Position numbers and translations under genes: made by a program. Below are positions 1,143 to 4,026 of a stretch of DNA of 13,130 bases, in pieces. The stretch's first letter is position 1. The number at the start of each line of letters is the position of its first letter. The notes under the pieces were generated by a model. It did not search any database, was not told the DNA's origin, and saw only the letters and a program-made list of their open reading frames with translations. The stretch comes from Burkholderiales bacterium (lineage in GTDB: Bacteria > Pseudomonadota > Gammaproteobacteria > Burkholderiales > Burkholderiaceae_C). The stretch spans positions 1 to 13,130 of the forward strand of contig SBFU01000193.1 of the NCBI GenBank assembly GCA_006227785.1, written 5' to 3'.

Positions 1143-1958
1143 TCAGACCGCAGGACGCATCCAGACAATGCACCGGTCCGCATCCAGGCCGGGCACCGTC
1201 AGTGGTTCCACGTGAAACACCGACACATCCGATGGCAGGGCGGCCAGCTCATCGGCGGGGTGTTTGCCCTTGAGCGCCATCCACACCCCTGCCGGCCTCA
1301 GTGCCGCCTTGGACCAGGCGGTGAAGTCGACCAGCGAGGCAAAGGCGCGGGAGCAGACCACGTCATAGCCACCGCCCTCTTCCGCTTTCAACGATTCGAC
1401 CCGTGCGTGGATGCCCCGCAGGTTCGGCAGCTTCAGGGTGGCCGCCACCTGCTGGATAAAAGTTGCTTTCTTGAGCACGGTGTCGACGCAGTCCACCTTG
1501 ATCTGCGGACACGTGATGGCGACCACAACGCCAGGCAGACCGCCGCCTGAACCTACATCCAGGAGACGGAGGTAGGGCCCCCACGCTCCGCCGCTGCGCG
1601 GGTCGCTGCCCCCCAAGGGGGCTGTTTCGCCTTGGGGCGGCCCGGCAGCGAAACCTGGCCCCCACGCTCCGCCGCCAAGATCCCCGTCACTCCCACGCAA
1701 GCGGGAGTCCACAACAACCGACGACACCTCTTCCCCACCAACCTGCCGCAACAGCGGCGGGATGGCGGCCAGGCTGTCGAGCAGGTGGTGGGTCAGCATC
1801 TCCTGCGGATCGCGCACGGCTGTCAGGTTGTAGACCTTGTTCCATTTGGCGATCAGGTCCTGGTAGGCCAGCAGCTGATCCACCTGCCCAGTGGACAGGT
1901 TCAGCCCCAGCTTGCGCAGCCCGGCTTCCAGCGCCGGCCTCAGCACGGCAGCGCTCAT
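1143..1958 (-). CDS. rsmG: 16S rRNA (guanine-N7) methyltransferase RsmG (GidB), with a repeat-derived internal insertion
   Basis: RsmG methylates N7 of G527 (E. coli numbering) in 16S rRNA using S-adenosylmethionine; its loss gives low-level streptomycin resistance in several bacteria. The N-terminal helical part (THHLLDSLA at about 56-64), the SAM-binding loop [12 protein letters not shown] at about 132-143, CSRAFASL at 202-209 and a late KGKH are all present. The ATG overlaps the mnmG stop (ATGA), indicating translational coupling. The protein is 271 residues, against 207 in E. coli. Residues about 78-128, just before the first SAM-domain strand, have no counterpart in the family and are encoded by two repetitive DNA elements (1577-1674 and 1683-1714), with the frame kept open. 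A parS-like site overlaps codons F248-P252. Function is probably intact because the insertion falls in a domain-linking loop, but this is inference. Confidence 0.96.
1205..1218. promoter_or_regulatory. parS-like ParB-binding site (one mismatch) inside rsmG
   Basis: GTTCCACGTGAAAC differs from the perfect GTTTCACGTGAAAC palindrome at one base. That base is variable in the classical B. subtilis consensus TGTTNCACGTGAAACA, so binding is plausible. It lies in the rsmG coding region and encodes F248-H-V-E-P252 on the minus strand. Confidence 0.8.
1577..1674. repeat. GC-rich palindromic repeat inside rsmG, bounded by 17 bp direct repeats
   Basis: A 17 bp direct repeat (GCCCCCACGCTCCGCCG) occurs at 1577-1593 and 1658-1674, 81 bp apart. 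Between the copies lie a C-run/AA/G-run hairpin (about 1609-1621) and a second, inverted CCTTGGGG block (1631-1637). In the rsmG reading frame the two direct-repeat ends encode nearly the same peptide, GGGAWGP and SGGAWGP. A related sequence with the same order of blocks (CCGCTGCGCGG, C-run/G-run hairpin, GCGGCCCGGC) lies between genes at 11286-11334. I regard it as one copy of a dispersed intergenic repeat family that has entered a coding region. Confidence 0.8.
1683..1714. repeat. Short palindromic repeat of the ACTCCC...GGGAGT type inside rsmG
   Basis: ACTCCC at 1689-1694 pairs with GGGAGT at 1703-1708 around an ACGCAAGC centre. The sequence resembles the very common proteobacterial dispersed palindrome whose core reads roughly CCCGC-loop-GCGGGA flanked by GTCA/TGAC; here CGTCAC lies on one side and GTCCAC on the other. 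It encodes the [11 protein letters not shown] stretch of RsmG (residues about 83-93). The family assignment comes from general recollection, not a search. Confidence 0.65.
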
Positions 1959-4000: not shown

Positions 4001-4026
4001 CGGTGTGTTTCACGTGAAACACACCG
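4001..4026. promoter_or_regulatory. Extended parS site upstream of mnmG (26 bp perfect palindrome)
   Basis: The 16 bp consensus TGTTTCACGTGAAACA occupies 4006-4021, and perfect symmetry extends over all 26 bases of 4001-4026 (outer arms CGGTG/CACCG). It is the only one of the four sites outside coding sequence, in the 186 bp gap between the divergent mnmG and FMN reductase genes. It starts 52 bp before the mnmG ATG, so ParB bound here could also affect transcription of either gene. Confidence 0.95.

Follow-up and report, generated by a model that had tools for sequence, protein, structure and literature searches.

The window, a stretch of 13,130 nucleotides, carries on its minus strand an open reading frame that matches PF02527 and TIGR00138 above cut-off in a search with Pfam- and NCBIfam-type profiles, which identifies it as RsmG/GidB. 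Both profiles match the protein as two stretches, the better of which begins at residue 131. The insert was defined by aligning the protein with 45 relatives. We observed that 56 residues lie between LLRQVGG and LLDVGSGGG, compared to 4 in insert-free relatives (for example G280, ...LLRQTGGQPIQLLDVG), a net gain of 52 codons. A first-pass annotation of this DNA had already proposed an in-frame insertion in RsmG, placed at about residues 78-128 and positions 1575-1729; the insertion is confirmed, and its extent is corrected to that given in Table 1. The frame is open and the SAM-binding motif is intact and resumes at once, as that annotation had noted. Residues 9-64 and 62-202 of E. coli GidB (1jsx) match residues 14-69 and 128-267 of the protein, which places the insert after the N-terminal helices and before the first strand of the core. 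The loop at this site is variable in length among relatives even without repeats. In the AlphaFold2 model (mean pLDDT 75.6, pTM 0.75), residues 76-118 are below 50 while the remaining ten-residue blocks are mostly at 84-96, with dips to 53-73, and the insert is thus modelled as disordered.

Table 1. Features of rsmG and its insert, in positions of the window.
Feature	Position	Strand	Basis
rsmG (gidB), 16S rRNA m7G527 methyltransferase, 271 aa, with in-frame insert	1143..1958	-	family profiles, structure match
SAM-binding motif, resuming right past the insert	1530..1559	-	alignment
19-bp direct repeat, copy 1, opening the unit	1576..1594	+	sequence
Dispersed hairpin repeat (BRE-like), one 81-bp unit, antisense to rsmG, in the favoured antisense frame	1577..1657	+	genome searches, alignment, frame count
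Insert, 52 codons, residues ~76-127, ends +/- ~2 codons	1578..1733	-	alignment of relatives, DNA of alleles with and without the insert
Terminal stem-loop of the unit, arms GTTTCGC / GCGAAAC, 7-bp stem covarying among copies	1624..1654	+	covariation
19-bp direct repeat, copy 2, opening a truncated next unit	1657..1675	+	sequence; tandem units elsewhere share such a stretch
CGTC-tagged REP: CGTC tag, imperfect palindrome ACTCCC..GGGAGT, CCA tail	1685..1711	+	pattern search; class features as described in PMC3733652
REP-side flank, also adjoining REP sequence in the RsmG insert of G353	1712..1733	-	comparison by eye

Two kinds of repeat in the insert

Read in the plus direction, the insert consists of one 81-bp unit, 19 bp of a next unit, nine bases, a CGTC-tagged REP and its flank, meaning that two kinds of repeat, a hairpin repeat and a REP, are joined in it. 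The direct repeats, spaced 81 bp, are 19 bp long and not 17 bp as first described. The ACTCCC/GGGAGT palindrome pointed out at the same time is real and forms part of the REP. The REP pattern occurs once in the window and in 0 of 200 shuffles, and it has an 8-bp stem with one mismatch and a 4-base loop. CGTC-tagged REPs are described with a CGTC tag, a stem of 8-9 bp, a loop of 4-5 bases and a CCA tail, and intragenic copies are known, with uvrA and uvrB among the hosts (BMC Genomics 2013, 14:522, PMC3733652). The element in the insert shares the tag, the short stem, the 4-base loop and the CCA tail with this class, to which we assign it, and the RsmG insert of G353 holds a head-to-head-like REP pair as found in that class. 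In contrast, the 81-bp unit is longer than a CGTC-tagged REP and has no tag. The words Acidovorax, Comamon and Polaromonas are absent from the text of PMC3733652. The REP is present in several copies, since nine places in the own genome match only about positions 115-161 of the query (E 8e-7 to 0.02).

To look at the hairpin, we aligned 84 copies of the repeat, excluding identical and truncated ones. The core was almost invariant, and changes on both sides were seen at every pair of the terminal 7-bp stem. Over the whole structure, 142 cells with double changes were counted, compared to 43.5 after shuffling and 9-49 when the partner column was slid. The terminal stem holds 19 G-U against 10 A-C cells, which does not decide between folding at the RNA and at the DNA level. 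The case for the hairpin rests on this covariation, because a single copy folds little better than its shuffled versions (z -1.35 for the plus strand as DNA, -0.34 for the minus strand as RNA); the covariation could also be produced by hairpin-templated repair. Nothing was found by Rfam in window positions 1500-1800 (E up to 1), nor in seven sources at the gathering score. Tandem units are mostly 81-92 bp apart. Long intergenic tandem arrays with unequal units (e.g., 82 to 92 bp), which could not keep a frame, were observed in G302 and G321. Several genomes of the source genus also hold scattered copies of a second subfamily (L333-L352), which has a longer middle hairpin; five RsmG inserts are of this form.

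The repeat is dispersed in its own genome, where a 181-bp segment found 50 places at E<=10 and 37 at E<1e-6, itself counted, with 40 of 57 first-look candidates scored. Of 299 genomes sampled from the family, the own genome counted, 217 matched the 156-bp insert DNA (E<=1e-5). Among 369 genomes drawn over the class, the 81-bp unit matched 3, all in the family (E<=1e-6; two candidates scored per genome, family given for 20 of the 366 misses). Partial matches, none of which covers 80% of the query, were found in five plasmid records, from Acidovorax, Rhodoferax, Azoarcus, Variovorax and Burkholderia, and since one of them comes from Azoarcus, we do not regard the repeat as strictly confined to the family. 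The repeat was absent from the 61 parsed of 80 named GTDB RsmGs, which were ranked by their match to an insert-free query. No mobilising enzyme was found beside the repeat: PF01797 (Y1 transposase) was detected once in three of four genomes, and the best repeat match next to a PF01797 gene was 14 bp long (E 0.37). A RAYT-associated GTAG REP or REPIN was rejected on these grounds, as no Y1 transposase gene was flanked by the repeat.

Judged by description, the larger repeat can very probably be equated with the published Beta-proteobacterial repeat element (BRE), which it resembles in size, tandem habit, unit number, host range and intragenic copies. BREs are G+C-rich repeats of 75-91 bp in tandem arrays of variable unit number, their loci being termed VNTRs; they were reported from Bordetella, Comamonadaceae and Azoarcus as chromosomal copies only, mostly intergenic with some wholly inside coding sequences, and their function was left open (BMC Genomics 2011, 12:207, PMC3110155). 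Unit length and variable tandem number are alike, the hosts overlap in Comamonadaceae and Azoarcus, and both repeats are usually intergenic and partly in genes, although the copies of G190 and G294 lie mostly in genes. The G+C content differs, with a mean of 69.0% (63.7-78.9) for the Bordetella copies compared to 81.3% (70.5-88.2) for the matched parts of 106 single copies here. Contrarily to the BRE, reported from chromosomes alone, the repeat was also found in plasmid records. The BRE section of PMC3110155 deals with neither reading frame, distance to stop codons, covarying hairpin nor host proteins. Our literature searches found no report of the repeat as in-frame protein in named enzymes, of its frame bias or of its position relative to stop codons; its sequence words were not found, and no later title on BRE appeared. 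PMC2755013 was discarded as a source on the repeat, its available text covering CRISPR only. Altogether, the kind of element and in all likelihood the repeat itself are known, while the host protein is new, the intragenic spread is wider than expected and the frame preference is clear.

Copies inside genes and behind stop codons

The first-pass annotation had described the insert as a repeat turned into protein sequence. This holds far beyond RsmG, since we found 40 in-gene, in-frame copies within many unrelated conserved enzymes, including RecG, LigA, UvrA, MoeA, CobQ and AmgK: 17 in three genomes of the source genus, 10 in G190, 9 in G294, 3 in the own genome, and one CobQ copy overlooked by the classifier. 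In the source genus (G114, G343 and G312), 17 of 123 sites lay within an open frame and were flanked on either side by coding signal. These were the best copies (40 scored of 97 to 146 first-look candidates per genome), classified by a codon model trained on the window at sites at least 350 bp from a locus end. Their hosts, named from the best NCBIfam matches, some of them below cut-off since the loci are cut, are salicylyl-CoA 5-hydroxylase (two different sites), kynureninase, CobQ, MoeA, XdhA, Mpl (one site common to two species), biotin carboxylase, acyl-CoA dehydrogenase, UvrA (two insertions), an MBL-fold protein, threonine aldolase, acetoacetate-CoA ligase and one protein without a family. 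CobQ (L174) and UvrA (L293) each carry two separate in-frame copies.

In other genera, in-gene in-frame sites were 10 of 12 in G190 (loci for 15 of 16 matches) and 9 of 11 in G294 (15 of 19 matches). The hosts there include RecG, polyamine aminopropyltransferase, a heavy-metal P-type ATPase, an RND adaptor, an RND pump, acetoacetate-CoA ligase, AmgK, alkanesulfonate monooxygenase, threonine synthase, DNA ligase LigA, a FemAB-like protein and PurK, from a scan of 18 loci that left out L354 and gave no NCBIfam match for L369. A bias of the query does not explain the in-gene copies of G190, as an intergenic-type query found the same 16 places plus one more. In L374 (G294), the FemAB-like protein holds four tandem 28-codon units in frame. 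The own genome has 3 of 13 usable sites in genes (20 loci fetched), namely in RsmG, a DUF2126 protein and AmgK. In AmgK the repeat lies between HRDFMxRNLM and LGVLDFQDAV both in the own genome (L016) and in G190 (L379), which belongs to a different genus, and both copies are read in the favoured sense frame. An annotated in-gene case is a Fic-family gene on a Rhodoferax antarcticus plasmid.

We also used RsmG residues 76-131 as the sole query, a search that detects RsmG's frame only, in proteins 0.55-1.75 times the length of RsmG. It found 207 proteins; the 120 listed were 26 RsmGs and 94 others, the latter from more than 20 Pfam families as counted from the list. Hosts found in this way include DTW-domain proteins, TruB, BirA, CFA synthase, arylformamidase and TrmJ-like methyltransferases, with the repeat at differing sites among the last (P0134 and P0142 compared to P0135 and P0174). 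The repeat is terminal in P0124, P0128, P0137, P0143 and P0148, and in P0153 the frame is shifted after it.

The reading frame was strongly biased. While four frames are used overall, 33 of the 40 in-gene copies are in the one favoured for their orientation: all 12 sense copies read ...GSLPPEGA..., and 21 of 28 antisense copies, RsmG included, read ...AP(S/L)GGS(D/E)P..., two other frames being used by 3 and 4. Frames were counted at the invariant core, except that for three of the 40 copies the peptide served instead. We removed host-gene matches that fall outside the repeat by chance (the 'sense 0' matches of L083 and L309 and the 'antisense' match at L174 residue 11), along with any second hit in the same copy or the same tandem array. 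Among the open frames of 82 anchored intergenic copies, the share of the favoured ones is 0.41 (sense) and 0.35 (antisense), and the bias against this expectation has probabilities of 2e-5 and 1e-5, or 1e-4 and 2e-5 when sites shared by species are merged (10 sense; 18 of 23 antisense). The neglected open frames give Arg-rich peptides and the favoured ones flexible Gly/Pro/Ser-rich peptides. The frame bias of the in-gene copies therefore indicates that proteins filter which insertions survive. Openness as such is not a special trait of the repeat: copies have 5.16 of 6 frames open compared to 4.88 (sd 0.10) after base shuffling, so it is mostly a matter of composition. In-gene copies were antisense in 14 of 17 cases in the source genus (one-sided p 0.017), but we do not claim a bias of orientation, since two sites are common to two species and the other genera gave only 12 of 19.

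Outside genes, the repeat of the source genus is placed like a REP, its hairpins lying directly behind stop codons mostly in one orientation. Of the 106 intergenic copies in G114, G343 and G312, 80 have a gene pointing at them whose stop codon lies 0-12 bp before the start of the repeat. At co-directional sites, 61 of 72 were in that orientation and 11 in the reverse. Both distances were below 300 bp in 28 of 33 convergent pairs, and in 25 of these 28 the repeat start was nearer to its own stop than the end was to the other, with 3 in reverse (sign test 1.4e-5). These counts are not fully independent, some sites being common to species. Some E. coli REPs are likewise hairpins close behind stops, and work quoted in PMC12306157 (mSphere 2025) reports ribosome stalling at those that follow the stop by no more than 15 nt. 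There, 446 of 4,072 E. coli REPs lie within 15 nt of a stop (260 of 496 in earlier work quoted), compared to 80 of 106 intergenic copies within 12 bp here. The repeat may act on mRNA 3' ends when near a stop codon, and its position offers a functional clue for a repeat whose discoverers left the function open in 2011.

Origin and fate of the RsmG insert

The best 120 RsmG relatives comprised 73 empty alleles and 47 with an insert, mostly of one unit; 47 of 120 is not a frequency, because relatives were ranked by likeness to an insert-bearing query. In the source genus, 8 of 28 parsed loci carried an insert (30 fetched, best first in an insert-favouring ranking, among 67 genomes). The insert is thus patchy in the genus and not conserved across the order, nor is it strain-specific, since P0001 and others bear inserts at the same site of RsmG. 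Its make-up varies: P0013 has two units and P0003 three, P0004 and P0027 carry REP-derived inserts, five proteins retain remnants of 6-7 residues, and P0002 has exactly one 27-residue unit fewer than the window. These arrays and changes were seen solely in intact open reading frames, and the keeping of the frame is there partly an effect of the search.

A tree was built from the remainder of the protein without the insert (142 rows, of which 51 carry an insert or a remnant of one). The insert state changes a minimum of 31 times on it, compared to 41.7 (sd 2.6) with shuffled labels, and at least 20, 11 and 8 times when forks below 80, 90 and 95 were collapsed. Since the tree is weakly resolved, 8 changes is the safe figure. 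The five long-form inserts are on average 90% alike among themselves, compared to 83% for ten pool copies, and they group apart from these with moderate support (81/82). Loss, exchange and change of unit number at an old insertion therefore explain part of the pattern, and we do not claim repeated fresh insertion in rsmG, as one origin followed by loss or exchange fits the grouping at least as well. The five long-form inserts differ by 24 synonymous and 61 nonsynonymous codon changes (19 and 29 without G313), and the ten pool copies in the same frame by 182 and 394; in an initial smaller count the figures were 22 to 29 for four copies and 42 to 56 for five. Purifying selection on the peptide is not visible in these long-form inserts, which are few and whose pairs are non-independent; the insert of the window itself is of the short form.

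We consider it highly probable that the 52 residues are a tolerated passenger, made of a hairpin repeat unit and a partial unit, very probably BRE, together with a REP. The repeat would spread as DNA through an activity in trans, and the number of units would shift by recombination between the direct repeats. The insert sits in frame in a loop of variable length that separates the N-terminal helices from the first strand of the methyltransferase core, and it would survive there because its antisense frame yields a flexible Gly/Pro/Ser-rich peptide. Proteins would act as a filter on surviving insertions, and afterwards the peptide bears no sign of upkeep. The insert-bearing RsmG presumably still methylates G527.

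Other bacteria tolerate losing RsmG, and here a large insert lies near the SAM motif. Even so, it is unlikely that the insert inactivates the enzyme, with the frame kept only by chance or recency: both halves of RsmG match the family profiles, the SAM motif is unbroken, most of the core is modelled with confidence, and RsmGs with varied in-frame insert lengths recur, though our searches would miss broken ones. That the insert is used, its unit number tuning RsmG activity as an in-gene variable-number repeat, would agree with the differing unit numbers of near relatives (P0002 compared to the window; P0013 and P0003), with the reading of the insert in a favoured frame and with the term VNTR given to BRE loci (PMC3110155). 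However, the repeat and its frame bias recur in unrelated enzymes and the long-form inserts lack visible purifying selection, which makes such tuning very unlikely. Site, orientation and frame are alike in many RsmGs, as would be expected of an ancestral, functional domain added to the enzyme; this reading is most improbable given the patchy occurrence on the tree, the presence of the peptide in unrelated proteins and its disorder in the model. Finally, the insert is a repeat in a fragmented genome (67.57% complete, 506 contigs), but the chance of an assembly artefact is negligible, as a 97%-identical RsmG (P0001) has the identical 271-aa layout in a separate public assembly, inserts fill the identical site in others such as G313 (3 contigs), and the frame is intact.

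The best-known examples of in-frame repeat insertion come from Rickettsia and Wolbachia and are often put down to weak selection. Rickettsia palindromic elements (RPEs) are dispersed palindromic repeats found in frame in conserved protein genes and considered near neutral (PMC2229807, PMC10969869). The likeness to Rickettsia seen by the first-pass annotation holds for the way of working, palindromic repeats being carried in frame inside protein genes in both cases; it is not a claim of sequence homology. The hosts of RPEs are of another bacterial class. Unlike RPEs, the repeat here expands in tandem and has one favoured frame per orientation, and its hosts, judged by locus names, are not obligate intracellular bacteria (PMC2229807, PMC10969869). 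The joining of two kinds of repeat, the several gains and losses at the site, the favoured frame and the probable identity with BRE had all escaped that annotation. In-frame insertion is thus seen here at scale in a different, large-genomed group, with LigA, RecG, UvrA and RsmG among the hosts, and the frame bias shows which type of peptide proteins can absorb.

A broader reading is possible but somewhat doubtful: BRE-like repeats may be a family-wide passenger DNA that codes for protein, aimed behind stop codons, with in-gene survivors framed as bland linkers and, in some genera, copies that are mostly protein. If so, most recognisable copies in some genera would now be protein within conserved, even essential enzymes. 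Natural RsmG alleles with 0, 1, 2 and 3 units at one site make the cost of the insert directly measurable. Apart from the repeat, four GTTTCACGTGAAAC-like palindromes, which resemble parS sites, were observed in and around rsmG and mnmG, at 1203-1218, 2272-2287, 2491-2506 and 4005-4020.
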